60,000 bases of DNA. Origin: Bolinopsis microptera. Its lineage: Eukaryota > Ctenophora > Tentaculata > Lobata > Bolinopsidae. Positions 7,766-48,680 of the stretch are shown in pieces (position 1 is the first letter of the stretch; every line of letters begins with the position of its first letter). Under the pieces are notes generated by a model that had not been told where the DNA came from, searched no databases, and saw nothing but the letters and a program-made list of their open reading frames with translations. The stretch covers positions 12,252,983 to 12,312,982 of the forward strand of contig NC_087077.1 in the NCBI RefSeq assembly GCF_026151205.1. Reading direction: 5' to 3'. Both the position numbers and the translations under genes were made by a program.

Positions 7766-8545
7766 CTGAGCTTAAGAGGTTTATTTACATTTGTATACCT
7801 ATGGAACTGTAGAACTGTTGAAATCCAGAGAAGGTTATTGACATTGTTCTCTTGAGGGTGCTGGCATTTTACCTTATAATCATTCTGGAGACGGGAACGA
7901 GCATGTTACTGTTAACAAGAGTCAAAAATACCGGCAGGGCACTCATTTGAATTCCGTAAGTGTTCTGGCCGGCGTGAAACATTGTCTTCAGGATAAGGAA
8001 TCTGTTGCTCCAAGTTATCAACAGGATAAGAAAACGGTTCACTGAATTACTTTAAATGCTTTACTGTTTCGAGGAGAATTGGTATTTGGTGCACTACTGT
8101 TCTCGGGAGAAGGAAACCCTTGGTCTACTGTTTTGAAGAGAACTAGTATACTACTGTTCTCAGGAGAAGGAAACCAGTGGTCTACTGTTTTGAAGAGAAC
8201 TATTGCGTTACTGTTCTCAGGAGAATAAAACCGGTGGTCTACTGTTTTGAAGAGAACTAGTGCGTTACTGTTCTTAGGAGAAGGAAACCGTTGGTCTACT
8301 ATTTTGAAGAGAACTGGTACACTACTGTTCTTCGGAGAAGAAACCGTTGGTCTACTGTTTTGAAGAAAACTGGTGCACTTCTGTTCCCAGGAGAAAAAAA
8401 CTGATGCTCTAATATTTTCAAAAGAAAAGAAGTGGTACTTTAGAAAGATTACTGGTAAACAGTAATAAAAGTCGACAATTAGTTTTGGCGAAATTTGGAA
8501 AACATTTTGGCTTTGGCCTTCAGCTGTCAGCAGAAAAACTATCTG
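7766..8545 (+). repeat. second, degraded copy of the minisatellite element
   Basis: The sequence parallels the interior of the element at 9384-11073. It shares the left segment (CTTAAGAGGTTTATTTACAT..), about six 57-bp units at 8090-8390, and the right segment (AAAGTCGACAAT..TTGGCCTTCAGC). The terminal TAGGCTATCC ends are missing, so it is a fragment or an internally duplicated piece. Confidence 0.7.
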
Positions 8546-33143: not shown

Positions 33144-34641
33144 CCGGTAAGTTTTTTATGTGTGTTATTTGTTTTATTTACTTAATTAAGTTTTATTTTA
33201 TAAGTAGTCTGTTGGTTTGTTATATTATTGTCTGGAGAGAGGCTTCCTACCCGACAGAAAGACTGGGCTGAAATGTTAAATTGTGTTCCACTATGTTAAT
33301 CAGTAGGAGTAGTGGTATTGGTATACATTATAATAGAGTGGGTATACAATACATTCCAAGGATATGTGTTGTGGGGTGGCGGTGCGCTATAAACTAACTT
33401 TTTACAGTTGGTGTGCAAGTGAAGTGCTAGCTGGAAGCTAGAAATGTGTCAAATATCAGAGGTGCTACATCAGTGTTCTGCTGCCAGGGAGTTTTAGATT
33501 TATTTATTGTATAATGGGACAAGACAAGATTATTGCACTTTGTTTATGAGAGATACGGTTTTTATTTTACTGTGGCGAAGGTTCTGTTCTGCAATACTAT
33601 TTCTGGAACGCTGTACAGTCTGTTTCATTGGTCATTTTCTTATGTCTCCGAATTGTTTGTTAGATATATAGGCTGTACTGAATTAGTTTCAGGTAATGTA
33701 TACAAATTACACTTCGATCGAGAGGAAGCTTTTCACGTGCGTATCTTTTAGGACTAGCAAGACTTCCCGCCTTACAGTTTGAACAAAACTACTGTCCAGC
33801 ACTTTTCGTACATTTTGTGCGCGCGTGGTAAGGTTTGGCGGTACTGATAACAAAGGTTTGGCTGACTTGTTTCAATTTAAACTACCGCTTGGAATTTGAT
33901 TCCTGTTCAAATCAAAACATAGTGCACATGGTCCGAAAAACTTCTTGGGAATCTCCATCTGACATGTTCATATTATAGGAATTACCACCTCAATTATTTT
34001 TATTATTACTAAATTGTTAAACCACGAGGGTATGTACCGAGCTGCTGCCAGAGACAAGATAACCGCTCATTTTACATTGTCAACAGCTTATACTGTACAA
34101 AAAAACATGGAATATTGCAGTACATTTACCCTGCAATATTTGCATCGATGCACTCTAGATGAACATTTTTTAGATTTAGAAACATATCCAGCATAAACAG
34201 AATGCAAATGAAATTTGAGATCTTAAATATTACGCTTTTAGTAGACTTATACCCCTTTTATTTCTTAAATTCAATGTTCGCTTAGGTGGGGAGGAAAATA
34301 TTGTGCTTGAGCGTGTAGTTTACCACTAATTTATTCATGAGAACGGACTCTGAAGACGTATGTTCATGGTAAATAACATACCTACGGTATAAACTGCGTT
34401 GTATTTCGATTGTTTTAGACATATCTTTTCAAAAATAAATACTTCCTGTGAATAAAGGTGCGAGGCGCTCAGTCACTACTTACTTGTGGTTTTGCGACTG
34501 ATTAAATTATATACGTTCTATCCAAGTTTACTTCCTCTCGATCGGCTTTGGAAAATGTTGAGTTACATATGTAACATAAAAATTATATAATTGTAGGTAA
34601 CCTTGAATTTTATTACTGTCATTTAAAACAATTCCTCCAGG
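33144..34641. other. intergenic region between RPF1 and the zinc-finger cluster
   Basis: This 1.5 kb has no supportable gene. It should contain the RPF1 3' untranslated region and poly(A) site and whatever drives the downstream gene. It ends in ACAATTCCTCCAG one base before the next start codon, that is, at a 3' splice acceptor. A GTAGGTAACC motif lies at about 34594. Confidence 0.5.
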
Positions 34642-35814
34642 ATGTCTCAGTCAGATTACTATGGCGGTTATAACAACACTCCAACATCCCAACAAGCCGC
34701 CTTCAACCCCACACCAATGCCCCCAGGAATGCCACCAATGCCTCCTGGCTCTATAAGTGGGATGCCGGCATTTCCACCTGGTTTTCCATTGCCTCCACCA
34801 CCTATGGCAGGGTCACAGCAGCCAGCAGCGGGGGGTAATCAGTACGGGGCTTCTCAGCCGGACCAGCAATTCAATCAACAGAGTCAGTACCAGCAGCAGC
34901 CTCCGAGCAAACCTAGCTTCGGACAACAGAACAATTCCAATGCCCCGAGTCAGCAGGAGATTGATTTTGCTGCAGCTTCTAAGAATGAAAACAGAGATGT
35001 TATTGAAAATCAAATATTCATTACTAATCTAAATACAAATGCGCCGCCCACTCAGGACGATCTGAAGGAGCGTTTTGGAAGTATCGGTATTATTAAGATG
35101 GATAAGAAAACTCGCACACCGAGGATCAAGGTATGGCCAGAGAAAGGATGTGCGAGTGTAACATACGAGGACCCCAGCGCAGCAAGTGCGGCAATCTCCT
35201 GGTTTAGCGGGAAAGACTTTGCAGGTTCAGTGATAACAGTGGAGCTAGCAACTAAATCTGAGGAGTGGAGTGGGGGCAGACGGGGAGAGCGTTCAGGAGG
35301 ACGGGGAGGGGGACGAGGTGGAGGTGGCTTCGGAGGAGGAGACCGTGGCAGTAGAGGTGGTGGCAGAGACTTTGAGCGAGGAGGTGGTAGAGACAGGTCA
35401 CCAAGACGCAGGTCTCGTTCTCGATCTCCTAACCGAGGTGGTGGCGGACAGAAGGAGGGTGACTGGTCGTGTGCGGAATGTAGCAACAGCAACTTTGCAC
35501 GCAGAACGGAATGTAACAGATGCAAGGCTCCAAAACCTGGTGGTGGATACGGTGGAGGAGAACGACGAGGCAGTGATAGAGGGGGCTATGAAAGGAGAGA
35601 CAGAGACAGGAGAGACGATAGAAGGGATGATCGCCGGGGTGGTGATCGTCGGGACGACAGAAGGGGGGACGACAGGAGAAGTGGTGGGTTCGGAGGTCGG
35701 GGAGGAGGGCGTGGTGGTGGCAACGTGCGTGACGGTGACTGGCCTTGTCCCAAGTGCGGGGTAAACAACTTCGCCAGTCGGTCAGAGTGTTTCAAATGTC
35801 ATGCCTCCAAATAG
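34642..35814 (+). CDS. FET-family RNA-binding protein (FUS/EWSR1/TAF15/Cabeza-like)
   Basis: 390 residues in one exon. Residues 1-115 are a low-complexity Gln/Pro/Gly/Tyr/Ser region of the prion-like type that drives FET condensation. An RRM follows at about 120-205 (IFITNLNTNAPP, DDLKERFGSIGIIKMDKKT, GCASVTYEDPSAASAAISWF, KDFAGSVITVELA), with the IGIIK and AAI.WF.GK.F.G signatures of FUS/TAF15. Next come RGG repeats with an RS patch (RSPRRRSRSRSP, about 252-263), a RanBP2 finger at about 272-296 (W-C-x2-C-x3-N-FARR-x2-C-x2-C), an Arg/Asp-rich DRRDDRR stretch and a second finger at about 365-388. FET proteins act in nuclear transcription and splicing and bind GGU-type RNA. Two fingers instead of one and the absence of a C-terminal PY nuclear signal (it ends FKCHASK) are unusual. 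The ATG lies one base after an acceptor (TCCTCCAG). Confidence 0.88.
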   Translation: MSQSDYYGGYNNTPTSQQAAFNPTPMPPGMPPMPPGSISGMPAFPPGFPLPPPPMAGSQQPAAGGNQYGASQPDQQFNQQSQYQQQPPSKPSFGQQNNSNAPSQQEIDFAAASKNENRDVIENQIFITNLNTNAPPTQDDLKERFGSIGIIKMDKKTRTPRIKVWPEKGCASVTYEDPSAASAAISWFSGKDFAGSVITVELATKSEEWSGGRRGERSGGRGGGRGGGGFGGGDRGSRGGGRDFERGGGRDRSPRRRSRSRSPNRGGGGQKEGDWSCAECSNSNFARRTECNRCKAPKPGGGYGGGERRGSDRGGYERRDRDRRDDRRDDRRGGDRRDDRRGDDRRSGGFGGRGGGRGGGNVRDGDWPCPKCGVNNFASRSECFKCHASK

Positions 35815-36929
35815 ACTCTATTTTCCTCTCAGTTACCCACTTTTATCTGGCTTCTCTGTTTTTACGGACGATGTCGCTTCTCATGCGGATATTTTGTTCA
35901 AAGGTCAGAAGTAAAAATAAGTTTAGTACAGAGAATCACTTCTCTATATCTATCAACTGTTAATCTGCAAAATATGACCGTGAACTCGAATGCCTGCCTT
36001 ATAATTTGAATTCACTTGTTCCACGATATTATCTGATGTGTACAGCACAGTGAACATATTATTCAGCGCTGTTGTTATATTGAAAATGTCATCAAGTTGA
36101 TTTAAAATTTTTATATATCCATGTCGAGTATGTTGTGTCATATTGTTTTCGATTAATCTTGAGTTATTCACCTTATCATTTATTTCTTCGATATAATAGT
36201 AATAGAAACGTAGATGTCCTTTATATCTGTTGACACACGCAGTTAAAAGTTGCATTTGAATTTGCCTGTTATCGTAGGATTAGCTCGTCGGTCTAAATCA
36301 TAACAATCAATTGATGTTTTCTGAAAGAGAAAGGAGAGATCTACCAAATGCGTTTTATTATATTTATTTTTTCAGCTTCAATCCCAAACTACTCCAACAG
36401 CTTTCAAGGGATCATCCTGAAACTTGGAAGGCACAAACTTGACACTTCTTCAAAGATTTTGGCCTGAAGAGAATTTTGTTTCATGTCACCAGTAAAACTG
36501 TTAAGAGAAATGAATTGGGATTTAAGCTGTGAAATCGCACGCATTGTAGACATGCAGATTGATATTTTAATGAGATATAGTAGATCTCACTTTCATATCC
36601 CAGAAATCATGAAATCGATCATTGTTATCAAACTCCTCAATACCTGCACATTGCACATCTACTCCTATTATGCTATTAGTATTACACTTGACTTCATACC
36701 CTTAGCACTAGAATATGCACCATGAGTGTACATTATATGGACTGTTCGTAGATATATGCCCTTCTTTAGTCTGATTAGATTCCTAGCTTAACTTCGTCAA
36801 ACGGCATTGTTCTAATTGGTTTAGAATTATGAGAAGGTAAGGTATACCTGCTCAAGGTGAGAGTAATGGTGGAGGGGTGATATTGTTGAGACTAACATTA
36901 CAACTGTTCCCTAGGAGTGTGTTGTGGGT
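35815..36929. other. intergenic region, cluster genes 1 and 2
   Basis: AT-rich, with only accidental open frames (for example 36483-36725). It presumably holds the 3' end of gene 1. It ends with an acceptor-like CAACTGTTCCCTAG at 36914, 15 bases before the next ATG. Confidence 0.5.
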
Positions 36930-38642
36930 ATGATCTCGGATAACCCTGAGGTGCAGGTGGTGGATGATGGTGTTAAAGCTGGTTCCAACTGGGACTGTTC
37001 TAACTGTGGGTTCAGTAACCTGGAGGATAGATCCAGGTGCAAGGAGTGCTCTCTTCCTGGCAGTACCTGTGTAGTTACTGTAGAGCAGCCACCCAGCCTG
37101 CACAAGCGAAAGCACCCTACCCTAATTGAAGGCGACCAGAGCACCTGGAAGTGCGATACTTGCGCTCACAGGAACTTTGCGAGTGCGAGTGAGTGCTTCA
37201 AGTGCAAGACTTCGCAGGAGGTGCAGCTGAAGCGCAAGAAAGAGAACCCCAACAACTGGACCTGTACCGAGTGCAGGAACAGTAACTGGCCCCACAGGAC
37301 CGTATGTAACCGCTGCTCAGCGCCCAAGTCTGGCTACGAGAACCAGATAAACAGGAACGGAGGTGGCGATGCGGACTGGACCTGTCTGAACTGCGACAAC
37401 ATCAACCGACCCTTCCGACAGGAGTGCAACAAGTGCAAAATGAGCAAACAAGAGGCAGTTGACCCACGCACCCAGCATGGGAGGACCAATCAGGATTGGT
37501 TGTGTATGAGCTGTGGAAACAGCAACTACCCGTACAGAATAGCCTGCAACAAGTGCAAGTTACCCAAGCAGCAAGCCATGACTGCTACCAGATCTTTTGA
37601 TAGTGATAAGCCGGAAAACTGGCTGTGTTTTAACTGTGATAACGTGAACCTGCCTTTCCGTACGGAGTGCAACAAATGCAAGCTGGAGAAAAAGGAAGCG
37701 ATTAACCCGGAGACTGCCTTCAAGCGAACAAACAGGGACTGGAAGTGCACCGTATGTGAGAACGTTAACTTTTACTACCGAGTCTTCTGTAACAAGTGTC
37801 AGCTACCTAAAAGTGAGATTGGAGAAGAGATGGGACGGGGTGGGGACAGTGAAGGAGTGAAATGTAACAACTACACTTCCTACGGGGGAATACCCCACAC
37901 TGGAGGTCCCAACCCTGCAGTGCCCCACACGGGAGTAGCCCACACTGGAGTTCACAACCCTGCAGTGCCCCACTCAGCAGTGCCCCTCCCCTCAGAGCTG
38001 CGCGGTGTCCCCACGGAACCCATAGAGCAAGCTGCTGCACAGATGTTCCAAGAGCAGGTCCAGAAGGGAACAGTTCCCGCCAGTGCAGCTAGCTTTACCA
38101 TGGAGCACGATATTGTCAACAACAGAACAGACAACTGGACCTGCTATAACTGTGATAACCTCAACTATCCTCTCAGAACTCAGTGTAATAAGTGTAGTAT
38201 GTCAAAAGCAGAAGCGGTGGCGCCAGAGACGCGCGCAGGACGCTTAGCCTCAGGGGACACGCAGTGGCAGTGCGCCGGGTGCGGCAACAACAACTATCAC
38301 TTCAGATTGGCGTGCAACAAGTGCAAGGCCGATCGTCCGCCCAGAAACGCAAGTGAGCTGTACACCTGCAGCGATCAGGCCTACAGTGGTGGGTATCCTG
38401 TACAGCAATACGACTCTTCTTACAACACAGGGGGGTCTGTTGCCCGGACAACTAATGCGCCAACTTCAAACTGGATCTGTAGTGATTGTGAGAATGTCAA
38501 CTGGCCTAAACGGACCAAATGTAATAAGTGTGGTGTGGAAAAGAGCGCTCAGAATCCCAATTGGCTATGTGCTTACTGTAAACACATCAACTATTCCTTT
38601 GTTTCTCACTGTAACAGTTGCAAAGCTGCTAAAGATAGCTGA
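36930..38642 (+). CDS. protein with eleven RanBP2-type zinc fingers
   Basis: 570 residues in one exon, starting at ATG 36930, the first ATG after the acceptor at 36914. Eleven fingers of the W-x-C-x2-C-x3-N-x6-C-x2-C pattern begin near residues 21, 73, 109, 149, 188, 230, 270, 402, 445, 514 and 545. They are joined by short linkers, except for a Pro/Thr/His-rich spacer at about 310-370 with repeated PHTG..VPH. Most fingers carry NKC at the second Cys pair and an aromatic-Pro-x-Arg core (NLPFR, NYPYR, NWPHR) in place of the NFARR seen in its neighbours, so they form a separate subclass. There is no RRM, RGG or recognised catalytic domain. RanBP2 fingers of this spacing bind single-stranded RNA or ubiquitin. 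The Arg after the aromatic residue favours RNA, but substrate and role are inference. I know no named protein with this architecture. Confidence 0.85.
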   Translation: MISDNPEVQVVDDGVKAGSNWDCSNCGFSNLEDRSRCKECSLPGSTCVVTVEQPPSLHKRKHPTLIEGDQSTWKCDTCAHRNFASASECFKCKTSQEVQLKRKKENPNNWTCTECRNSNWPHRTVCNRCSAPKSGYENQINRNGGGDADWTCLNCDNINRPFRQECNKCKMSKQEAVDPRTQHGRTNQDWLCMSCGNSNYPYRIACNKCKLPKQQAMTATRSFDSDKPENWLCFNCDNVNLPFRTECNKCKLEKKEAINPETAFKRTNRDWKCTVCENVNFYYRVFCNKCQLPKSEIGEEMGRGGDSEGVKCNNYTSYGGIPHTGGPNPAVPHTGVAHTGVHNPAVPHSAVPLPSELRGVPTEPIEQAAAQMFQEQVQKGTVPASAASFTMEHDIVNNRTDNWTCYNCDNLNYPLRTQCNKCSMSKAEAVAPETRAGRLASGDTQWQCAGCGNNNYHFRLACNKCKADRPPRNASELYTCSDQAYSGGYPVQQYDSSYNTGGSVARTTNAPTSNWICSDCENVNWPKRTKCNKCGVEKSAQNPNWLCAYCKHINYSFVSHCNSCKAAKDS

Positions 38643-38770
38643 TGGTAACCTTGTTGCTCTGGTAACACACTTGTTGCTCCATTCCATGATATTTTCTGTC
38701 TCGTATAGGTCGGCTGCTGTGGTAAGGTAAACATCCGAGGTTCTGTTACTAAGGTAAAATAACCTAGTTT
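38640..38770 (+). promoter_or_regulatory. GGT/GGTAA-rich 3' flank of cluster gene 2
   Basis: About eight GGT trinucleotides in 130 nt, several as GGTAAC or GGTAAGGTAAAC, against two ACC. They begin right after the stop codon, so they should lie in the 3' UTR. GGU and AGGUAA are the known ligands of ZRANB2/FUS-type fingers. Function here is inferred only. Confidence 0.4.
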
Positions 38771-39243
38771 CGGTTACTATATTTGCTTACCTTAATTTGT
38801 ACATGGGTATTTGACCAAGTTGTCTGTTTGTTGGTTTTGCATTTTATAAACATATAATTATACTTTATTGTGTGCTTTTGTTTATATGTATTTTTAAATT
38901 CGCTGTAAATTTTGCATTTTAAGCGAATAATGTTAGATATTGATTAGCCTAGGATATATATATTTTGGAAATTTATCTGTGGTTTTCAATGTGATCCCTT
39001 AAAATAGGGCTTGTGGAAGTTTTTAGATCTGTCTGTAAAATTGAGGGTAAGATGGTTTGTCAGTGTTAGTATAGAAAATGTTGTGTCAGTTTACCCAGTT
39101 TTCTATTTGTGATTGTGATAATATGAAAATAGTGCTTACTGTAAAGCATCTCCACTCCGATCCATAGCTAATTTTTACCTTTTTCTCGGCATTTTGTAGA
39201 GAAAAACTGTCTGGAGCTAAGATTAAAGTGGAAATGTGTCGGG
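38771..39243. other. AT-rich intergenic DNA
   Basis: No gene is seen. It is probably the remainder of the gene 2 3' UTR and intergenic sequence. Confidence 0.5.
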
Positions 39244-39472
39244 TGCTAAGATTAAAGCGGAAATGTGCTGTGTTGGGTCTGTTAGTTTGAACTGGAACTG
39301 TGCTGTGTTGGGTCTGTTAGTTTGAACGGGAACTGTGCTGTGTTGGGTCTGTTAGTTTAAAGTGGAACTATTTCGGGATCTGTAAGTCAAAGTGAAAACT
39401 GGAACTGTGTGGTTGTGGAGTCTGTTAGTTTAAAGTGGAACTGTGTGGAGTCTGTCAGTTTAAAGTGGGTTG
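39244..39472 (+). repeat. about 36-bp degenerate tandem repeat upstream of cluster gene 3
   Basis: Five to six imperfect units carrying GGAACTGTG, TGTTGGGTCTGTTAGTTT and AAGTGGAACT blocks. The last ends just before the acceptor of the next gene, so the repeat lies in its promoter, intron or outron. Confidence 0.8.
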
Positions 39473-39502
39473 CCATGGTAACAAACAATTATTTAGGTTG
39501 CC

Positions 39503-40057
39503 ATGAGTGGTCGATATGAAGATAGAGACTATGGTGGTCGATATGATCGGCGGGACGACAGAATGGGGGGCGGCGGGCCTCAGCGAAGAGCAGGAGATTG
39601 GGACTGTGATGACTGTGGGTTCCACAACTATGCTAGCAGAAGTGAGTGTTTTAAGTGCAGAGTGCCTAAGAGTGGAGGCGGTGGTGGTGGTGGTGGTGGT
39701 GGAGGAGGAGGTGGCAGGCGAAGGTCCAGGTCCAGATCCCCACCACGCAGACGGGGTGGTTCCAGGTCCCCTCCCCGTGGTTACGGTGGCGGCTACAACA
39801 ATGCCAACGATCGGGGAGACAACTGGGAATGTTCTAAGTGTTTTTTCAGTAATTTTGCACGAAGGTTTGAGTGTATGAAGTGCAGGACGCCTAAAAGTGG
39901 AGGCTCTGGTGGCGGAGGCAGAGTGGGTGGTGGTGATCGTGGTGATCGACGGGGCGGTGGGCCAGAACGCAGAGCTGGGGATTGGAATTGCAAAGAATGT
40001 GACTTCAGTAACTTCGCCAGCCGAGATGCCTGCTACAAGTGCAACGCTCCTAAATAG
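39503..40057 (+). CDS. small RGG/RS protein with three RanBP2 fingers
   Basis: 184 residues, single exon. Fingers lie at about 33-53 (DWDCDDCGFHNYASRSECFK), 107-127 (NWECSKC..NFARRFECMKC) and 160-180 (DWNCKECDFSNFASRDACYK), each with the N-[FY]-A-[RS]-R core of RNA-binding RanBP2 fingers. Between fingers 1 and 2 are a long Gly run, an RRRSRSRSPPRRR stretch and RSPP repeats; Gly/Arg stretches follow finger 2. It resembles the C-terminal half of the FET-like gene with the RRM removed. The protein is very basic and probably nuclear. The ATG lies six bases after an acceptor (ATTTAG|GTTGCC). It is the third same-strand gene of the cluster, 0.86 kb after the stop of gene 2. Confidence 0.85.
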   Translation: MSGRYEDRDYGGRYDRRDDRMGGGGPQRRAGDWDCDDCGFHNYASRSECFKCRVPKSGGGGGGGGGGGGGGRRRSRSRSPPRRRGGSRSPPRGYGGGYNNANDRGDNWECSKCFFSNFARRFECMKCRTPKSGGSGGGGRVGGGDRGDRRGGGPERRAGDWNCKECDFSNFASRDACYKCNAPK

Positions 40058-40232
40058 AGCAATCCTCCAGCCTATGCCTGACAATGTCTTGTTTGGAACT
40101 TTTATTGGACTCCGTGAAACTTACAAAGGATTTGACCAATTATGACTGATCTTATGATGCAAACTGAATTTTTCAGAATTTTTCACGTTTTAAAACTTTT
40201 TAAGATGTTTTAAATGTAAAACATGCTACTAT

Positions 40233-40356
40233 GGGGGGAAGCCAAGGGGAATTTTGTGGTATTTTGGGAAATACCTTCATGGATTTTGGAAAACCTCCAT
40301 AATAGAGTCCCGCATAATACCACAAAATAGCACAAAATTCCCCTTGGCTTCCCCCC
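40233..40356. mobile_element. 124-bp MITE with G-run ends
   Basis: Inverted ends GGGGGGAAGCCAAGGGGAAT and its complement, with further complementary GGTATTTTG/CATAATACCAC parts inside, give an almost complete hairpin. The unit is flanked by TACTAT (40227-40232 and 40357-40362). It is related in style to the element at 26197 (CCAAGGGGAA shared). It lies in the 3' region of cluster gene 3. Confidence 0.75.
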
Positions 40357-40769
40357 TACTATTATATCATATGTTATCTCGCCGAATGCTTATTCTATTT
40401 TTCAATGATAATTATCTGTATTCTAAAGGTTGATTTTATTGCATCGATTATCGTCCGTAGATACTGCAATTGCCATTTGCATTGATCAATTGTTTAGATA
40501 CTCACTTTTCAAGGGATCGTTCACATAAAACGTAACCAGACTTTTGTCTTTTTTTTATAAAGACCCCTCCTCCCCACAAAGCTTACAATTTTTCTAAACC
40601 CCCTCCCCTAGCTATGAACGATCCCTAAATGTGATGGTGTAACTTAGAGGAAGGACGAAGACCAAACTTTATTGGCTGCTTATAAACCCCTTCAAACTCA
40701 TCCTCCGTATTCCTGAAATAAAATATTGCATATTTATGTTATTTATGTATTTAGTTGCGAGTTTTGAGT
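40357..40769. other. 3' flank of cluster gene 3
   Basis: Non-coding. It contains an AATAAA at 40717-40722, a plausible poly(A) signal, and no open frame worth listing. Confidence 0.5.
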
Positions 40770-40810
40770 AATAAAATTATCCATGAGCGTAAATTGTAAA
40801 TGTTTTAGGT
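40770..40810 (+). promoter_or_regulatory. poly(A) signal followed closely by splice acceptor
   Basis: AATAAA at 40770-40775 is followed 33 nt later by TGTTTTAG (AG at 40807-40808), two bases before the ATG of cluster gene 4. Such close poly(A)-signal/acceptor coupling is the arrangement seen between genes of trans-spliced operons, though a leader intron would also explain the acceptor. Confidence 0.4.
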
Positions 40811-41470
40811 ATGGGTGACCGGTACGGTAGTCGAGGCGGCGATAGTCGGCCAGGAGATTGGGTCTGCTACCAGTGCGAGACCAACAACTTTGCACGCCGC
40901 GATAAGTGCTTCAAATGTCAGGCCTCCAAAGGTGAAGATGACGGCGGTTATGGAGATGATGGGTACGGTCACGGCGGTGGCGGTGGTGGAGGCTATGGCG
41001 GTGGTGGTGGGGGTGGTGGTTACGGTCGCCGTGGGGGTTACGGTGGTGGTGGTGGTGGTGGAGGCGGCGGTGGCGGTTATAGAGGTGGTTATGATGACGG
41101 ATATGGTGATGACTACGGACACCGGCGGATGAGAAATAGGTCACGCTCACCCCCTAGATTCGAGAGCAGAGACCGTGGCAGCGGCGGTGGTGGCGGCGAG
41201 TACAGGGAGGGAGACTGGGAATGTTACAAGTGTGGTACCAACAACTTCGCTCGTCGCGAGGAGTGCTTCAAGTGCAGTCATTCTAGAGGCGGCGGTGGTC
41301 GAGGCGGCGGCGGACGTGGTGGTGGTGGTGGTGGTCGGGGCTCTGGTAGAGGCGGCGGCGGCGGTGGTGGAGAGGACAACTGGCGAGAGGGCGACTGGAG
41401 TTGTAATAGCTGCCAGCAACATAACTTTGCGAGAAGGGATCAGTGCTACAAGTGCGGGGAGCCTAAGTAA
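40811..41470 (+). CDS. glycine-rich protein with three RanBP2 fingers
   Basis: 219 residues, single exon. Fingers lie at about 16-36 (DWVCYQCETNNFARRDKCFK), 134-154 (DWECYKCGTNNFARREECFK) and 195-215 (DWSCNSCQQHNFARRDQCYK). All three have the intact NNFARR or HNFARR core that contacts GGU RNA in ZRANB2/FUS-type fingers. Between fingers 1 and 2 lie about 60 residues of G/Y/D-rich repeats and a RNRSRSPP motif; between 2 and 3 is a pure Gly/Arg (RGG) stretch. Charge and composition suggest a nuclear, phase-separating RNA-binding protein. It is a close relative of cluster genes 3 and 5. The start is clear: acceptor TTTTAG|GT then ATG. Confidence 0.88.
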   Translation: MGDRYGSRGGDSRPGDWVCYQCETNNFARRDKCFKCQASKGEDDGGYGDDGYGHGGGGGGGYGGGGGGGGYGRRGGYGGGGGGGGGGGGYRGGYDDGYGDDYGHRRMRNRSRSPPRFESRDRGSGGGGGEYREGDWECYKCGTNNFARREECFKCSHSRGGGGRGGGGRGGGGGGRGSGRGGGGGGGEDNWREGDWSCNSCQQHNFARRDQCYKCGEPK

Positions 41471-42096
41471 ACTGCAGCTAGCTGAATAGTTGATACCTTA
41501 CTGCAATCTAATACTCTATTACAGTATAGCTGTTTATCGTATAATTTTATCAAACCTTTATGTCTGCACTGGCGATGTTGTGACAATGTTTTTAAAGTAC
41601 GTCATTCCTCCAATTCCTTCACCCAGTTCCTATTTGAATCTTTCGCTTTTGTATAACTTATTCAATTATTTTATAACATAATTTTATATATCTTATCTTA
41701 TTTGTTAAAATTAGAAGCAAAGTTGAAAATTGAATTGAAAAGTTAGAAATGAGCTGAAACTACTTTGAAAAGTTATCCTCTATAATGCATCTGTCAAATT
41801 ATTAATAGTTATACATATGATTGTTTATAACCCAGGCTATAGTTTTCTTTTAGATAGTGCTTGTCCCTCAATTACAACAGATAACTTTTCTAAGTAAAAT
41901 TTGTGACAATATATTGACCTTGTAATAGGAAATTTTAACAAATCATTTGTAAGCTTTGCAGTGATTTGTGCTAGGTAAGCTGGTATGGTGTGGGCTTATC
42001 ATGTTAACAGTGGTGGGGTAGGAATGGTCTGGTGGGCGGGTGTGGTGGTGGGTTACCATAGTAACGGTACAGGACTAACACTATGTAACAGGTAGG
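41471..42096 (+). promoter_or_regulatory. intergenic region ending in a GGT-dense 5' flank
   Basis: The first 480 bases are AT-rich without a gene. The final 130 (about 41967-42096) contain some 13 GGT trinucleotides (GGTAAG, GGTATGG, GGTGGGG, GGTAGG) up to the acceptor AACAG|GTAGG in front of the gene 5 ATG. This density of the motif recognised by RanBP2-type RNA-binding fingers, right before a finger gene, is suggestive of autoregulation. Confidence 0.4.
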
Positions 42097-42588
42097 ATGA
42101 GTAGGAGGCGGCGGAACAGTGAGGAGCGTGATTGGTTTCCAGAAGGTTCTCGGGCCTCCAGGCGGGACAGCCTCAATGGAGCGCGGGAGTTCAAACAAGA
42201 GTTCAGACCCGGGGACTGGGACTGTGAGAGCTGCCAGGCCCACAACTTCGCCCGCAGAGACACTTGCTTCAAGTGTGACCGGGGCAGATCAGGTGGTGGT
42301 CGCAGGAGCAGATCTCCAGTTCGGCGGAGAGGGTCGCCAATATACCGGGACTACCGGGATCAACCCAGCTATTCGTATAAGGAGGGAGACTGGCAGTGTT
42401 CTAAGTGCTCCTTTGACAACTACGCCCGGCGGACTAGATGTTTTAAATGTGACAGGGTTAGATCAAACGGGGGCGGCGGGTCACGCAACGCCTCCAATTA
42501 CAGGGAGGGGGACTGGTTTTGTAGAGGCTGCGGCAAGGACAACTTCGCCAGTCGGACTGAATGTTTCAGATGTGGGCAGCGAAAGTGA
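42097..42588 (+). CDS. small arginine-rich protein with three RanBP2 fingers
   Basis: 163 residues, single exon. Fingers lie at about 40-60 (DWDCESCQAHNFARRDTCFK), 98-118 (DWQCSKCSFDNYARRTRCFK) and 138-158 (DWFCRGCGKDNFASRTECFR). The N-terminus is very basic (MSRRRRNSEERDW), and an RRSRSPVRRRGSP segment separates fingers 1 and 2. It has less Gly than genes 3 and 4. The ATG is five bases after CAG (or immediately after GTAG plus one base). It is probably a nuclear RNA-binding protein of the same group; no partner can be inferred beyond the cluster itself. Confidence 0.86.
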   Translation: MSRRRRNSEERDWFPEGSRASRRDSLNGAREFKQEFRPGDWDCESCQAHNFARRDTCFKCDRGRSGGGRRSRSPVRRRGSPIYRDYRDQPSYSYKEGDWQCSKCSFDNYARRTRCFKCDRVRSNGGGGSRNASNYREGDWFCRGCGKDNFASRTECFRCGQRK

Positions 42589-42890
42589 ATGTTCCCTCCT
42601 TGTGTTGGTTTTTGGGGAAACTAGTCGCTATGTTGGAAGGGATTTTAGGTTTTCTCCCATGTGCCAACAGCATGAGTTATTTTAGATTTGCTGCAAGTTT
42701 ACTCATGAAGTTTATTAGTAATTAGTATCACACATACCCGGGCCAGACTATTTAACTTTTTACAAATGTATGATATAGCTTTAATGATGTTTTTATTCTA
42801 GAGTTATAATTTCCGTGGAATTAAATTTTTGATTTTGATGACTATTTACAAGTTTATGAATTGTAGATTATTGTTTACGCGTTGTGGAAT
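42589..42890. other. proximal 3' flank of cluster gene 5
   Basis: AT-rich non-coding sequence leading into the GGT-rich block. Confidence 0.5.
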
Positions 42891-43105
42891 TTTGGTTACC
42901 GTTAATAGGGTGTGTAAGTGTATACTGTAAGTACAGTGATTGTTGGTGAGGTTGGTAATTATAGTAAATACAGGTGGGTCGGTCAATATAATCATTTTTT
43001 GTAGACTTAACTTATTGTTGGTAAGGTTGTTAAATATAGTCACAGTTGGTAACATTATGTAAATATCTGTAGGGTTGGTAACTAAGGTAATTGCTGGTAG
43101 GTTAA
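42891..43105 (+). promoter_or_regulatory. GGT-dense 3' flank of cluster gene 5
   Basis: By eye I count 16 GGT against one ACC in about 215 nt, with TTGGTAA, AAGGTAATT and GGTTGGTAACT recurring at intervals of 10-30 nt. The strand bias means the motif is dense in the sense RNA. The block lies 300-520 nt after the stop codon, where a 3' UTR or downstream outron would be. Binding by the cluster's own fingers is inference. Confidence 0.45.
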
Positions 43106-43767
43106 GAATTGTATTTTGGTTTGTAAACTATATTTATAGCTCTATTTTGCACTTTTGAGCTCTCAAAACTGTGGCACATGGGTATCAGGTAGCGTCCCCG
43201 GTGCTGAGACCCACATATTTAAGATAAAATCAAGCTCGTTGTAAGTGCCTTCAAGTCCAAAACAGAAATAACGAACACATTTTTAAATGTCTCACGCTTA
43301 ACTTTTCGGGTTTCTATGGCAATCCTAGTCTTACTTAAGCACCTCTTTGATTATCATGGGCGGACAAACTTTGAGGTACATTTAATTAACAGTAATTCAC
43401 ACGAACCTAGATATGATAAGCTGATTTCTTTTCAGGCCAAAGTTTGTAACCCTTTTCGAGCTGAGCTGTTGATGCTTACAAGTAAAATCCCGCATAAATA
43501 TATGCCCAATCTGTATGAGATAAAGATGGTATTGCAATGACCAGAAACTGAATTGTAAATACAATTTCTGTAGATAGATATGACTCAGTATCAGTTCCAT
43601 CATTGCTTATCAGTGTATGAACGTTATAGTCCCTACTTTGTATCTGAAACTATGAAGTATGAGTCCTTTAAAGGGGTACAATTAGTACAATACCGGTAAC
43701 TGTATGTTGGTTGGTATGGTTACTATTAAGTGCACTACTAACGAGAGTATCTCAGGTAAGGTGAGGT
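43106..43767. other. intergenic region before cluster gene 6
   Basis: No gene is seen: the short open frames at 43316-43540 lack support. The last 100 bases again hold many GGT (CCGGTAAC, TTGGTTGGTATGG) and end CTCAGGTAAGGTGAGGTATG, where the final ATG is the gene 6 start. Confidence 0.45.
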
Positions 43768-45312
43768 ATGTCAGGAATGCCCGGAGGTGAGGTTTGGAGG
43801 TGTGGTAGCTGTCACTCCCCCAACTCCCCTCTCCACAGGATGTGTACTAGCTGTAAGAAGTGGCGTGACCTTGACTGGAGTTGTGTGATGTGTGGTTATA
43901 AGAACTTCTCTAAAAGAGATACGTGTAAGGAGTGTGGGGCCGGTCACGTGCCCGAGTTTAACAAGGAGGAAGGTAACTATAATGTTAGTAACCATGGCAA
44001 CTATAGTAACCATGGTAGTGTTTATCAGGAGGTTGACGAGGCAGGAGGTTACCAGGACCCGCACTCAGTGCCAGCTCAACCCTCCTTTCAGGCTGGAATC
44101 CTTGATACCCCTTACCAGGCGCCCGTAGAACCCCCCTACCAGGAGCAAGGTGAACTCCCGTGGATGTGTGGGATGTGCAATACGGAGAACACCCCCAAGA
44201 GAATCCTCTGTTTCGAGTGTTCGGGACACAGAGAGAGAGTAGAGGTCAGGAACAGAGCCGCGGAGAATCGCAGGCACAGCCTCCCTCCTCCCTTTCTCTC
44301 CCCTCACAGGGATGTGAGTAGAGTTCAGTACCACCAGGGAGGAGCTGTTGAGGACCAAACTCTGGACTGGCTGTGCTCCAACTGCAATAACCGGAACTTT
44401 GCTAAGAGGACGAATTGTAACGTCTGTAAGAAGGAGAGGGATGAGGTAGAGATGAGAAGAGAGGTTCCGCCCTGGATAGAACCCTCACTGAGTATCTCTC
44501 ACATAAGAGACCAGCCGCGTCACGGTTCATCCTCCAGTATTCCACTTGAGAGGCCTGAGGACAAAACTAAAGACTGGTCCTGCTCTGGCTGCAGCAACAG
44601 GAACTTCGCCAAACGACAAGAGTGCAACAGATGCAAGAAGCCTCGAGCAGAAGTGGAAGATAAGACGGTGGACTACGCTTGCGAAGAGACTCCCTCCCTG
44701 AAGAGGGGTCCTGACCCATTTATTAGAGCTCCAGTAAAAGCCCCGAGATACGGTCCCATCCCCCAAAGATACAGTCTCACCCCTCCAAAACAGGACTTTT
44801 ATCCGCAAAGACAAAGTGTCATGCCTCCGAGACACGGTCCCACTCCTCGTCAGGAGGACTTATCTAACGACTGGGTGTGCGGGAAATGTAAAATTAACTG
44901 CTTTGCCAAGAAGACAAACTGCTTCAGATGTGGAAAGCCCCGCTCAGAAGTGGAGAACAGAGAGGCAGATTTGAGGGAGTTTGACAGGCCGGTGGTCAGC
45001 TATCCAGCTCCACCTGTCTCCAGACCTCAACAGCACAACCTCTCCGGACACAACCTCCGTCTTAACACGGGCTCCTCCTGGAACCACCACCCTCCAGCCC
45101 CCTTGGAGCAGAAACGCAAATGGGTGGACGAAGACAAGGCTAACGATTGGAATTGCAAGCTCTGTAAAATAAACAACTTTGCAAAGAGAAAGTCTTGTTT
45201 TTCGTGCAATAAGAGCAGAGGAGAGTGTGAAGAGAGAAACGAGAAGTCAGATAACGTAAAAGTTGGTTCTGAGACAGAGGTTACAAATCTAGTCGAGGGA
45301 GCAGGGGACTGA
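43768..45312 (+). CDS. protein with seven RanBP2-type fingers
   Basis: 514 residues, single exon. Fingers begin near residues 9, 36, 131, 200, 269, 368 and 460. Fingers 4, 5 and 7 carry the NFAKR core; finger 2 has NFSKR. Finger 1 (SPNSPLHRMC) and finger 3 (ENTPKRILC) are divergent. In finger 6 (CKINCFAKKTNC) the conserved Asn of the C-x3-N position is replaced by Cys. Linkers of 50-90 residues are Pro/Arg/Gln/Tyr-rich, with repeated PPRHGP/PQRYS-type motifs and pairs such as RSEVENRE and RAEVEDK after several fingers, suggesting duplication of a finger-plus-linker module. There is no RRM and no RGG run, so it is distinct from genes 3-5. The ATG follows an acceptor CTCAG by 12 nt (or a TGAG by 3). 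AATAAA lies at 45550-45555, about 240 nt after the stop. Confidence 0.85.
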   Translation: MSGMPGGEVWRCGSCHSPNSPLHRMCTSCKKWRDLDWSCVMCGYKNFSKRDTCKECGAGHVPEFNKEEGNYNVSNHGNYSNHGSVYQEVDEAGGYQDPHSVPAQPSFQAGILDTPYQAPVEPPYQEQGELPWMCGMCNTENTPKRILCFECSGHRERVEVRNRAAENRRHSLPPPFLSPHRDVSRVQYHQGGAVEDQTLDWLCSNCNNRNFAKRTNCNVCKKERDEVEMRREVPPWIEPSLSISHIRDQPRHGSSSSIPLERPEDKTKDWSCSGCSNRNFAKRQECNRCKKPRAEVEDKTVDYACEETPSLKRGPDPFIRAPVKAPRYGPIPQRYSLTPPKQDFYPQRQSVMPPRHGPTPRQEDLSNDWVCGKCKINCFAKKTNCFRCGKPRSEVENREADLREFDRPVVSYPAPPVSRPQQHNLSGHNLRLNTGSSWNHHPPAPLEQKRKWVDEDKANDWNCKLCKINNFAKRKSCFSCNKSRGECEERNEKSDNVKVGSETEVTNLVEGAGD

Positions 45313-45549
45313 GCTCAGCTAGTGGTTTAATATTTTGGACATTAATTCATACGTTTACTTTTTCATAATTACAGAATACAGTTGCATAAATATGCCGTTG
45401 ACTTATGCGCTATTTTTAGAACTGGTTGTTAGCAAAACGAAGTTTATTTTCATTGATAACCTTGAGCATGAATATTGAAGTGTATGATATTTATTTCGTA
45501 TCCTTTCAGTGATTCTACCTCTTTGTTTTAATACCGGGAATTCATTAAT

Positions 45550-45555
45550 AATAAA
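45550..45555 (+). terminator. poly(A) signal AATAAA
   Basis: A canonical hexamer in AT-rich sequence 240 nt after the stop of cluster gene 6, overlapping a second copy (AATAAATAAAT). Confidence 0.5.
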
Positions 45556-45628
45556 TAAATTTACGAATATTTCCCTCAGAATTAGTGCCGTAATGTCAGG
45601 TTCATGTGTCCTTATTAGTAAATTCCAA

Positions 45629-45660
45629 GGTTGGTTGAAGTTAGGTCAACGAAACGTCAT
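45629..45660 (+). other. hammerhead-like motif, Penelope-type relic
   Basis: GGTTGAAGTTAGGTCAACGA followed by AACGTCAT parallels the motif at 4369-4402 (TTGAAG, a short stem-loop, CGAAACGTC). The two share spacing rather than overall sequence. It is degenerate relative to the hammerhead consensus. Confidence 0.3.
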
Positions 45661-45704
45661 TGGTGTAGGTTGACTTTTTAATCAATTGTTTTACCAGGAG
45701 ATTT

Positions 45705-46421
45705 GGGGGTGATGCAACGTCAATTAATGTCAGTATTCCATAAAAACCCCAAACTGACATTGACATTAATTGACATTAATTGACATTAATTGACATTAAT
45801 TGACATTAATTGACATTAATATGTCTTGAAATTTGAGATTATCATTATTCGATAAATATTCAAGATATTCACGTCTATGTAAGTTAGACCGGTTCAAAAA
45901 AACAAAATGTCCTTGAATAATTATGAGTATGTTCTTATCTGTTGATCCTTAGGTTCAAAGACCACCAAAAAAAATTTCAGCTTCCAACTCTTCCATCTTC
46001 GGTCCCCACCGGCCACGCCCATATTTTATTGGTTTCTTATACAGGTAAAATATCTAGAATCGGCTTTTTTAGTATGAAGGAGTAATGTTAGCTGTTTAAG
46101 ATTCGTTATTCAAATATAAATGTCATGAAGGCATTTCGTTTAATGTGGGTTTTAAGTTCTGATGATGTTGAGAACCACGCCCTTGGATGGCCACGCCCAT
46201 TTAAGAAAATTAAATTTCGGGAAACCGTATTATTTTAGTTTTATTGATATAAACGTTCTAAAGTGCTAAAAATATGGTAGAACTACATAATCTCTGGTCG
46301 AAAAATATCGTGTCAATTAATGTCAGTATTCCAAAATTTTGCAAAACTGACATTGACATTAATTGACATTAATTGACATTAATTGACATTAATTGACATT
46401 AATTGACGTTGCATTCCCCCC
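45705..46421. mobile_element. 717-bp inverted-repeat element with 8-bp target duplication
   Basis: The ends are GGGGGTGATGCAACGTCAAT and the complement of GGGGGGAATGCAACGTCAAT, flanked by a perfect 8-bp repeat GGAGATTT (45697-45704 and 46422-46429). Each end is followed by TTAATGTCAGTATTCC, a short spacer and a 10-bp tandem array (ATTAATTGAC, about six copies, at 45768-45822 and 46350-46410) that can pair back with the terminal repeat. There is no coding capacity. The 8-bp duplication fits hAT or P superfamilies. It separates cluster genes 6 and 7. Confidence 0.8.
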
Positions 46422-46541
46422 GGAGATTTTTAGTCGTCTTTTCCACCGAATTTCCAACCAATTAACCGATGAAGGCAAATGTCATACATAAGGTTAAACT
46501 ATTTAAATTAAGACCTCTAATAAGCTTTCTTCGTGCAGGTC

Positions 46542-48680
46542 ATGTCAGACCGCTGGATATGCGGCGAGTGTGGAGAGAAGAACATTCCAGAGCGTGTGAA
46601 TTGTTACAGTTGTCTGGCGTTCAAACCGGGACCCCGCACTCCGCCAGGCCCTGTACCCCAGACTCCGCCTGATCCTCCTGATCACTCTAACGGGATATCC
46701 AGCAAGAAGACGTGGTCCTGTAAGTTCTGCAATTCTATCAACAATAACAAGACGAGGGAGTGTTATCTTTGTAGTACGGTTAGACCTAGTAAGAGTTCTG
46801 TGGAGGACTGGGTCTGTAGGTTTTGTAGGACAAGTAATGGAGTCAGAGAGGAGGACTGCAGGACTTGTAATGCTGTGCGGGAGGCTTCAGTTAGAACACC
46901 AAACAACGTGACGCCAGAGACGTCTGTCAATGATGAGGTACGTGAATCTTCAGTCAGTGATATGGTGCGACGGCCCTCAGTCAGCGATGAGGTACCCAAG
47001 GCCTCAATCAGTGATGGGGTGCGCGAGGCGTCAGTTAGCACCCCCACTACTCCAAGTGAGCCTGATGTCGACTACTGGTTATGTTCTGTTTGTTCTTACA
47101 AAGCCTCACACGGCCCTCACTGCTTCCAGTGCGGCTCCGTCAAAAACCCTGGCATTCAGCCATGCCCTGGGAACTGGCAGTGTTCCAAATGTCAGACCAC
47201 AAACTTTGCGAAGCGAGTGCAATGTTACAGTTGTCACAAGAAGCTAAGAAAGCGGTCCCCTGCTTCAGTTCCGGTGACCTGCCCAACATGTAAGTTTTGT
47301 AACCAGCCCTCCTCCAAGGAGTGCTTGTTGTGTGGCTCTGCTTTACCGGCTCCTCCCCCTAAACCGGCTCCTCAGAAACGGAGGATGTTGAAAACTTCCA
47401 GCTCCAGTGGCTCTGCTCCTCTCTCTACTCCTCTTCCTCACTGCTCTACATCCGCTAGCTCTAACCATGTCTCTCTTACATCGAACAATGTTATATCTAA
47501 CAATATTCCCAAAAACTTGTTTATTACTCCCAAGGATTGGAAATGTCAGAGTTGTGACTATAAGAATATCGCACTTCGGAACTTCTGTAAAGATTGCGAT
47601 ACTCCCCGCAAATGTATTGCGAAATTGTACATCAAGTACAAGAAACATGGAATATCAGCTTTAACTAATGTCCCTAGAAATGATAAGTGTCTAACTAGTC
47701 CGCCTCCACAGAGTCCCCTACCTGTAACTAAGAAGAGTTCTCTACGAGGGTGCTCTAAGTGCGGTAGACCTCACGAGGGCTCACATCACGTGTGCAGAGA
47801 CTGTAACACTAAGTTGACTGACCAGCCCGCGCCCTCCACTGGGGAGAGTGTTATGTTGAAGAAGTGCGCTGAGTGCGGGTTGGAGTGCGATGGTCAGTAC
47901 TGCTACACGTGTGCCAAGCAAATGGGAATCAAACTGGAGCACGACACTTGGGAATGTCAGAACTGCCACCTTGTCGATGAGAACACCGCCATCTGCATGG
48001 GCTGCGGGCATAACAAGGCAGAGTCTGCCGTGGTGGCCAACAAGTTCCTCACCTGTAATCACTGTCAGACCAAGAATCACCCCCACAAATCTAACTGTGT
48101 GAGATGTATGAAAGTACTGGCGAAGAAAGAAGTTTCTTGGTCAGCGTCAGGTGCTGAGGAGCGCCCTGCTGTTAAGGAAACCTGGACTTGTGTGTATTGT
48201 GAGATATCAGTACTTGCTAAGTGTACTCATTGTAGGGGCTGTAATAGAGCTAGGGTTAATGCTGCCAAGGAGGGCAAGGAGAAGGGAGGGAGTGTGGAGG
48301 ATCAGGAGGAAGAAGAAGAAGAAGGAGAGTGGGTTGAGGAGGAGCAGTACCCTTCTCCTGAGAAGCAGCACCAACCACTACCAGTGGACAAAAGTAACAA
48401 TAATCAGGAGCAGTATTTTGAAGAGGATTACAGTTACTCGCCCCGCCCCCACTTCCTCCCGCCTCCCCCAATGAGACAGCGGTACCCCCCTCCGGGACCT
48501 CCCCGCCTCCCTCCACGCTTCTCTCAGCCACGTTACCCCCCGCTGCGCCCCCTCCTGCCACATCGGCCCCGTCACCCACCTCACCAGAGACTCAGGGTCC
48601 CCTCCCACCGGCCCAGGGCTACTCATTCTACTCGCAGACAACCCATGAACCTGATGATGCAGCCCGGCCAGGGCCACTAG
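46542..48680 (+). CDS. large protein with about twelve RanBP2-type or degenerate fingers
   Basis: 712 residues in one exon, starting at ATG 46542, three bases after an acceptor (TCGTGCAG|GTC). Cys4 modules begin near residues 4, 57, 89, 178, 210, 247, 331, 403, 440, 469, 502 and 547. About half keep the RanBP2 pattern with Trp and Asn (best: NWQCSKCQTTNFAKRVQCYS near 210). Others lack Trp, the Asn or residues between the pairs (GCSKCGRPHEGSHHVCRDC; KKCAECGLECDGQYCYTC), resembling short zinc ribbons. A repeated Ser/Val/Glu segment (VREASVS, VRRPSVS, VPKASIS) lies at about 120-165. The C-terminus is acidic (DQEEEEEEGEW, about 590) and then Pro/Arg-rich (640-712). This is the most divergent member of the cluster; its role is unknown. 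AATAAA is at 48932. Confidence 0.82.
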   Translation: MSDRWICGECGEKNIPERVNCYSCLAFKPGPRTPPGPVPQTPPDPPDHSNGISSKKTWSCKFCNSINNNKTRECYLCSTVRPSKSSVEDWVCRFCRTSNGVREEDCRTCNAVREASVRTPNNVTPETSVNDEVRESSVSDMVRRPSVSDEVPKASISDGVREASVSTPTTPSEPDVDYWLCSVCSYKASHGPHCFQCGSVKNPGIQPCPGNWQCSKCQTTNFAKRVQCYSCHKKLRKRSPASVPVTCPTCKFCNQPSSKECLLCGSALPAPPPKPAPQKRRMLKTSSSSGSAPLSTPLPHCSTSASSNHVSLTSNNVISNNIPKNLFITPKDWKCQSCDYKNIALRNFCKDCDTPRKCIAKLYIKYKKHGISALTNVPRNDKCLTSPPPQSPLPVTKKSSLRGCSKCGRPHEGSHHVCRDCNTKLTDQPAPSTGESVMLKKCAECGLECDGQYCYTCAKQMGIKLEHDTWECQNCHLVDENTAICMGCGHNKAESAVVANKFLTCNHCQTKNHPHKSNCVRCMKVLAKKEVSWSASGAEERPAVKETWTCVYCEISVLAKCTHCRGCNRARVNAAKEGKEKGGSVEDQEEEEEEGEWVEEEQYPSPEKQHQPLPVDKSNNNQEQYFEEDYSYSPRPHFLPPPPMRQRYPPPGPPRLPPRFSQPRYPPLRPLLPHRPRHPPHQRLRVPSHRPRATHSTRRQPMNLMMQPGQGH

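Follow-up and report, generated by a model that had tools for sequence, protein, structure and literature searches.

A 60,000-base window of the genome of the ctenophore Bolinopsis microptera (bases 12252983–12312982 of contig C6) contains a tandem cluster of seven genes, numbered 1 to 7 here, that encode 41 four-cysteine (Cys4) modules, largely RanBP2-type zinc fingers. The cluster probably belongs to a family of RNA-binding proteins with multiple fingers that has grown in the ctenophore lineage by repeated duplication, an expansion that may be confined to ctenophores. It is an expansion of a known RNA-binding module in an unusual genomic form and not a new kind of molecule; according to a first-pass annotation of this DNA, animals normally have such fingers one or two at a time in a few dispersed genes.

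The seven genes and the RRM of gene 1

The genome searched comprises 264.65 Mb in 232 contigs; PMC10232365 describes 13 chromosome-scale scaffolds for B. microptera. The ligand-binding part of one of its glutamate receptors finds its best match in a Mnemiopsis leidyi chain (215 bits; 192 for the next protein), and the best genomic place shares 77% identity with one half of that chain and 73% with the other, in keeping with a lobate ctenophore. With the full-length receptor as query, the best PDB match was the kainate receptor GluK2; the Mnemiopsis chain, which comprises a ligand-binding domain alone, ranked first for that region. All seven genes are uninterrupted open reading frames (ORFs) on one strand, exactly where the first-pass annotation had placed them, and are separated by gaps of 626–1229 bases. 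Counting non-overlapping matches to CxxC-x8-12-CxxC affords 2, 11, 3, 3, 3, 7 and 12 modules in genes 1–7, the total of 41 agreeing with the annotated figure of about 41, whereas the largest counts among 2000 shuffled versions of each protein were 0, 2, 1, 1, 1, 1 and 2. The canonical form W-x-C-x2-C-x10-C-x2-C is adopted by 35 of the modules, the other six all lying in gene 7; two of the 35 lack the Asn of the W-x-C-x2-4-C-x3-N-x6-C-x2-C ribbon, which the count did not demand. Pfam PF00641 is matched above its cut-off in all seven proteins, weakly in gene 7 (30.8 bits; cut-off 27). The translated ORFs also display the Arg-Gly-Gly/Arg-Ser (RGG/RS) or Pro-rich linkers previously described between the fingers. 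The chance of such stop-free runs, given the base composition, ranges from 1e-3 (gene 5) to 1e-14 (gene 7); long open frames are not unusual in this genome (10 of 32 rows of glutamate-receptor matches lie in frames of 904–989 codons). In genes 3 and 7 the true and +1 frames were not distinguished by a codon-usage score, which was dropped as evidence.

Gene 1 had been assigned the architecture of the FET proteins (FUS, EWSR1, TAF15 and Drosophila Cabeza), and it does combine a FET-type RRM with RGG runs and RanBP2 fingers on the C-terminal side of the RRM. By sequence and predicted fold, this RRM is of the FUS/EWS/TAF15 type. It matches Pfam RRM_1 with an E-value of 2.4e-6, and its best match among PDB sequences is FUS (E 6.2e-22), together with TAF15 and EWS; the top nine phmmer rows are all FET proteins. 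A model built from two sequences (predicted local distance difference test score, pLDDT, 83.9) retrieved FUS, FUS, FUS and EWS in the first four Foldseek places and TAF15 in the eighth, with an E-value of 6.2e-9 for FUS. The rest of the protein departs from the family. FET proteins carry a C-terminal RGG region and a Pro-Tyr (PY) nuclear signal, whereas gene 1 ends in ...FKCHASK, just past its second finger, and has no PY signal. It has two C-x2-C fingers (best stretch residues 271–300, the second from about residue 363, with RGG between them), unlike the C-x4-C finger of FUS and TAF15. Residues 1–110, judged by eye from the translation, look rich in Pro, Gln, Asn and Gly with few Tyr, rather than clearly SYGQ-rich. 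Because of the two fingers and the missing PY signal, we term gene 1 FET-like and not a standard FET gene. A second FET-like gene, at C5:17084 kb, has one finger and a Tyr-rich start; this finger scores 25 bits against PF00641 in the protein (below the Pfam 27) and 29.5 bits in the genome search, and the RRM region matches more weakly (EWS 0.0016, FUS 0.0025; Pfam reports no RRM at E 0.01). Either gene may be the true FET orthologue; gene 1 is the nearer of the two by RRM score.

Duplication within and between loci

Growth of the family would have involved duplication both within genes (the gene 2 unit, in three copies) and of whole genes (1, 3, 4 and 5; the C6B array; a C10 pair), with relatives shared between loci. 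Fingers 4–9 of gene 2 form three copies of a two-finger unit (Table 1), in which the linker residues K, EA, P, T and R are unchanged. Finger starts are spaced by 40, 41 and 40 residues from finger 4 to finger 7; the third copy follows 132 residues later with a spacing of 43. Fingers in the same phase are modestly more alike (mean 43%, with one pair at 22%) than those in the other phase (34%), and the unit is recognizable mainly by its linker, the constancy of which suggests a fixed geometry on RNA.

Beyond the window, the proposed profile search of the genome bore out a concentration of fingers, but not in this cluster alone: at least 48 PF00641 matches were found, 33 of them in three places, namely the window (12), C6:18.765–18.769 Mb (12; hereafter C6B) and C10:13.079–13.098 Mb (9). 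C6B, 6.5 Mb from the cluster, holds four tandem paralogues of gene 3. The ratio of nonsynonymous to synonymous divergence (dN/dS) is 0.06–0.12 between gene 3 and these copies (dS 1.2–2.3, saturated) and 0.14–0.24 among the copies; gene 3 and its C6B relatives are under purifying selection. Synonymous divergence is lowest between copies 1 and 3 (dS 0.22) and between copies 2 and 4 (0.28), the next being 1 and 2 (0.34), and therefore C6B probably arose by duplication of one gene pair. Identity to gene 3 amounts to 64–70 of 78 residues in the fingers and 68–74 of 93–95 in the linkers, plus 22–38 gapped columns; one such column reflects a residue inserted into finger 3 of copies 1 and 3. The C10 array lies on the minus strand beside a GEMIN5-like gene and probably contains introns, because many of its fingers sit in short open segments. 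Its two long paralogues, T08 and T11, have open segments of 503 and 520 codons, and their fingers correspond in order (mean identity 46% in register, 26% out of register).

These relatives bear on the origin of the cluster, for which the first-pass annotation had proposed seeding by a FET finger and purely local growth. A finger tree was built from 28 columns of 70 of the 76 canonical fingers, omitting five from C6B copies 3 and 4 along with a single finger that was near-identical; non-canonical modules never entered it, and 40 of its 66 inner branches are open. One group (SH-aLRT, the Shimodaira–Hasegawa-like approximate likelihood ratio test, 90) unites gene 1 finger 1 with the C5 finger, gene 2 fingers 3–11, gene 6 fingers 4–5 and one C10 finger. 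Duplication in place of the FET-type module of gene 1 into all six other genes would agree with this group, with an ending shared by genes 1, 3, 4 and 5 (four residues past the last Cys, terminal Lys; also present in all four C6B copies) and with the best non-self matches of gene 1, which are the C6B relatives of gene 3. Such an origin from one FET gene alone is nonetheless unlikely, for the fingers of genes 3–5 and 25 of the 26 C10 fingers fall elsewhere on the tree. The four cluster labels require 19 changes on the tree, against a minimum of 3 and a shuffled average of 28.5; gene 6 finds its best non-self match in T11 (E 1e-10) over gene 1 (6e-5), and the two best of gene 2 are also C10 genes (3e-13 and 6e-13). 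The phylogeny links the first finger of gene 1 to parts of genes 2 and 6 while leaving genes 3–5 and nearly all of C10 apart. Neither simple seeding nor purely local growth is supported. Common descent of several cluster genes is supported by the shared ending and the match of gene 4 to gene 3, its closest relative (E 2e-18); gene 7 has only two weak matches (E 0.006 and 0.009). The second Cys pair reads CFKC or CYKC in 9 of 35 window fingers and 17 of 26 C10 fingers, and genes 3–5 have mostly CFKC-type ends. Local duplication is likely for the cluster, but several types of finger occur together in it and some of its relatives lie in C10.

A related module also occurs in dispersed repetitive DNA. 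A repeat present on C6, C7, C1 and twice on C9, with copies 98–100% identical, contains a 189-codon frame with two Cys4 modules, in which Pfam detected only a finger below the cut-off; its final 171 bases occur alone at four further places (98, 98, 98 and 86%). One C9 copy (L053) resembles a spliced copy in that it lacks a 791-base stretch ending in CCCAG two bases before the ATG of the C6 copy (L006), the other boundary being ambiguous. Older frames scattered over C5, C7, C8, C9 and C11 retain the two-module layout or its linker and second finger; one pair shares 91% identity over 889 bases. In eight (L016, L017, L019, L045, L047, L048, L050 and L051), a degenerate first module, complete or partial, is joined by a short linker, often G-E-S, to a second finger that is mostly NFARR-like; L019 also stops four residues past its last Cys, but in Arg. 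The recent repeat and the diverged single frames are what selfish or neutral amplification would leave behind, with finger genes spread by mobile DNA and mostly decaying. For the cluster we regard this as highly improbable in view of the low dN/dS of gene 3 and C6B, the long intact frames, the finger-by-finger match of T08 and T11, and a DNA search with the repeat that matched nothing in the cluster.

Frames for a hAT-dimerisation domain and a PIF1 helicase lie near L016 and L019, and a direct 515-base tandem duplication (99.8% identical) occupies C6:18773049–18774074 (L006:5050–6075), just upstream of the two-module repeat. At C11:2299300–2300700 (L046), a lone NFAR-core finger in an RS-rich 250-codon frame may belong to a ZRANB2-like protein. 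A viral origin was considered and rejected: a scan of viral contigs with gene 2 gave three pattern matches, none encoding a relative by tblastn.

RNA-contact residues and the protein-binding alternative

Three contact features were scored in each finger: an acidic residue before the Trp, a stacking aromatic, and Arg at the last core position. Asp at position 4 and the aromatic at position 17 follow PMC6384913; the mapping onto these fingers and the choice of Arg are our own assignment. All three features occur in 16 of 35 canonical window fingers; in C6B the count is 6 of 10, and in C10 it is 20 of 26. By gene, the counts are 2/2, 2/11, 2/3, 3/3, 3/3, 4/7 and 0/6 for genes 1–7. In the window, the stacking aromatic is present in 25 and the last-core Arg in 28 of the 35. 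Searched against the PDB, the fingers have RBM10, FUS and ZRANB2 among their top matches.

Among the closest known counterparts are ZRANB2 and RBM5/RBM10, whose fingers share the core D-W-x-C...N-F-x-R-R...C. These proteins contain one or two such fingers, unlike the two to twelve modules of the cluster proteins. In plants, SRP1 of the SRP1/SRZ group has four C2C2 fingers of the form DWxC-x1-4-C-x3-N-x6-C-x2-C; it binds a 3′ untranslated region and is called plant-specific in PMC5258706. GGU, or a GGN sequence close to it, is the target of the EWS, FUS, ZRANB2 and ABI3-5Sup fingers (PMC6384913). Gene 2 has aromatic-Pro-x-Arg cores similar to the N-F-S-W-R of the FUS finger, which binds GGU (PMC6384913). 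The first-pass annotation had suggested that finger subclasses read different RNA motifs. This proposal is weakened, as natural fingers with different contact residues bind GGU or a related sequence, or no RNA, and no simple code was possible (PMC6384913); because differing contact residues give alike specificity, subclass-specific motifs are possible but less likely.

Several observations weigh against an RNA-binding family grown by duplication. At least one contact feature is missing from 19 of the 35 window fingers, gene 2 having only two of eleven complete. The natural ZRANB1-B and T0B2.5 fingers bind no RNA, and the affinity of mouse RBM10 is five-fold lower without the Asp before Trp (PMC6384913). 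The best PDB match of gene 4 is full-length RanBP2/Nup358 (E 5.6e-8), ahead of RBM10 (1.8e-6). Our model of the two-finger unit of gene 2 is of low confidence, with a pLDDT of 67.6 and a best Foldseek E-value of 0.1; it lies near ZRANB2 finger 2, both free and RNA-bound (3g9y, 0.6 Å over 26 columns). On the side of duplication and selection, the linkers of C6B and gene 3 are also fairly similar and selection was measured for gene 3 and its copies alone, while T08 and T11 show in-register identities of 30–61%, with a single out-of-register pair as high as 48%.

The fingers might instead be protein-interaction modules that recognize Ran-GDP, as in Nup153 and Nup358, or ubiquitin, as in NZF fingers. 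The fold is shared, Nup358 is the best PDB match of gene 4, and fingers of Nup153, TAB2 and Nup358 are among the structural matches. The contact residues are missing from gene 7 and from many of the fingers in genes 2 and 6, which may have a different function, for instance in binding proteins. As an account of the whole cluster, however, this explanation is distinctly unlikely. NZF ubiquitin-binding fingers carry a TF motif after the second Cys, which none of the 76 fingers has. Genes 1 and 3–6 have the NFARR-like D-W cores of ZRANB2, RBM10 and TAF15, and RGG/RS linkers and a FET-type RRM occur in the same cluster. Nup358 and Nup153, like the cluster proteins, have several fingers in series; these fingers were solved with Ran-GDP, those of Nup358 lack the NFARR core, and Pfam detected no nucleoporin domain in the cluster proteins.

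Start sites, neighboring features and biological meaning

The genes had been described as intronless, which stands for their coding parts only; every start codon is preceded by a splice-acceptor-like site. All seven first ATGs lie within 18 bases of an upstream [CT]AGG, which precedes 82 of 1214 control ATGs (6.75%; binomial 6e-9, the motif having been chosen after viewing the seven sites). A start-site block of about 25 bases is common to gene 3 and the four C6B copies, the acceptor in copy 4 reading AAGG. A stricter branch-point-plus-acceptor pattern was present at 4 of 7 cluster starts, 1 of 4 in C6B and 3 of 4 examined in C10, compared with 47/524, 50/520, 11/165 and 8/109 in controls. Many ctenophore mRNAs acquire a spliced leader, seen in at least 56% of Hormiphora Iso-Seq reads (PMC8527503). 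In light of this, a leader is probably joined to the transcript of each cluster gene, or an intron lies immediately ahead of its start codon. The 3′ part of the Hormiphora leader followed by GT, with up to three mismatches, occurs at four genome places versus one in a reversed control, and that leader is therefore not plainly conserved in the genome. The sequence AATTTGAGGT, with up to one mismatch, occurs at 15 window places versus 7.4 expected, a number that none of 100 shuffles attained; no window place is an exact match, and one exact place lies among the 54 loci.

Table 1. Positions of the cluster genes and associated features (window coordinates unless a contig is named)
Feature	Position	Strand	Remarks
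Gene 1	34642..35814	+	390 residues, FET-like: P/Q-rich N-terminus, RRM, RGG/RS, finger, RGG, C-terminal finger
RRM of gene 1 (residues 125–198)	35014..35235	+	Pfam, PDB sequence matches, Foldseek
Gene 2	36930..38642	+	570 residues from first ATG; ORF from 36924; 11 fingers, FET-type group from finger 3
Gene 2 unit copy 1 (fingers 4–5)	37371..37595	+	Conserved linker; reference copy
Gene 2 unit copy 2 (fingers 6–7)	37614..37838	+	52% identical to copy 1
Gene 2 unit copy 3 (fingers 8–9)	38130..38363	+	51% identical to copy 1; longer spacer before
Gene 3	39503..40057	+	184 residues, 3 fingers, Gly/RS linkers; four relatives at C6:18764692–18768787
Gene 4	40811..41470	+	219 residues, 3 NFARR fingers, Gly-rich linkers
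Gene 5	42097..42588	+	163 residues, 3 fingers
Gene 6	43768..45312	+	514 residues, 7 fingers, Pro-rich linkers; closest relatives in C10 array
Gene 7	46542..48680	+	712 residues from first ATG; ORF from 46533; 12 divergent Cys4 modules; tail acidic and rich in Pro/Arg
YAGG acceptor-like site, gene 1	34624..34641	+	Before start
YAGG acceptor-like site, gene 2	36912..36929	+	CTAAC upstream
YAGG acceptor-like site, gene 3	39485..39502	+	Block of ~25 bases resembling four C6B copies
YAGG acceptor-like site, gene 4	40793..40810	+	Before start
YAGG acceptor-like site, gene 5	42079..42096	+	CTAAC upstream
YAGG acceptor-like site, gene 6	43750..43767	+	CTAAC upstream
YAGG acceptor-like site, gene 7	46524..46541	+	CTAAT upstream
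Dispersed repeat copies	L006:7025–7778 = C6:18775024–18775777; C9:3594157–3594900; C9:10886096–10886785; C1:1401997–1402729; C7:8390505–8392066		

Downstream of the array, the window holds a Tudor-domain fragment (PF00567, E 3.8e-6) at 56275–56622 and a 36-base minisatellite of about 92 copies at 52960–56292 that is open in several frames on both strands. A 57-base minisatellite at 8089–8395 and 9970–10878 occurs also at C10:13083571–13084401, and its translation recurs within the C10 finger array, marking a dispersed tandem-repeat family.

ZRANB2, the FET proteins and RBM5/10 act in nuclear pre-mRNA processing or messenger ribonucleoprotein assembly, and a similar role is likely for the cluster proteins. 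Each intact finger would hold, weakly, a GGU-like trinucleotide of single-stranded RNA, and three to eleven fingers per chain, joined by RGG/RS or conserved linkers, could provide multivalent binding to G-rich or 5′-splice-site-like RNA. It is a long shot that ctenophores evolved a system of their own in which arrays of GGU-reading fingers serve RNA processing, long arrays of fixed spacing recognizing runs of splice-site-like sequence, perhaps in connection with the heavy spliced-leader trans-splicing of the phylum, and that the finger module moves on a still-young mobile element and is exchanged with host genes. Among the matches listed from open PMC papers, we found none on a ctenophore RanBP2-finger gene cluster or expansion, and 'RanBP' occurs 0 times in the main text of the ctenophore genome papers PMC10232365, PMC12221973, PMC11184263, PMC11797021 and PMC8527503. 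The acceptor-like YAGG before all seven starts and the recently dispersed repeat with its two-module relative are first seen here. Engineers have tried to build multi-finger arrays by hand (PMC6384913); the natural series of 2, 3, 7, 11 and 12 modules, with a repeated two-finger unit and its conserved linker, would allow the effect of the number and spacing of fingers on RNA affinity and specificity to be tested. The expansion also places a FET-type gene in its midst, in a phylum that is possibly sister to all other animals (PMC10232365).

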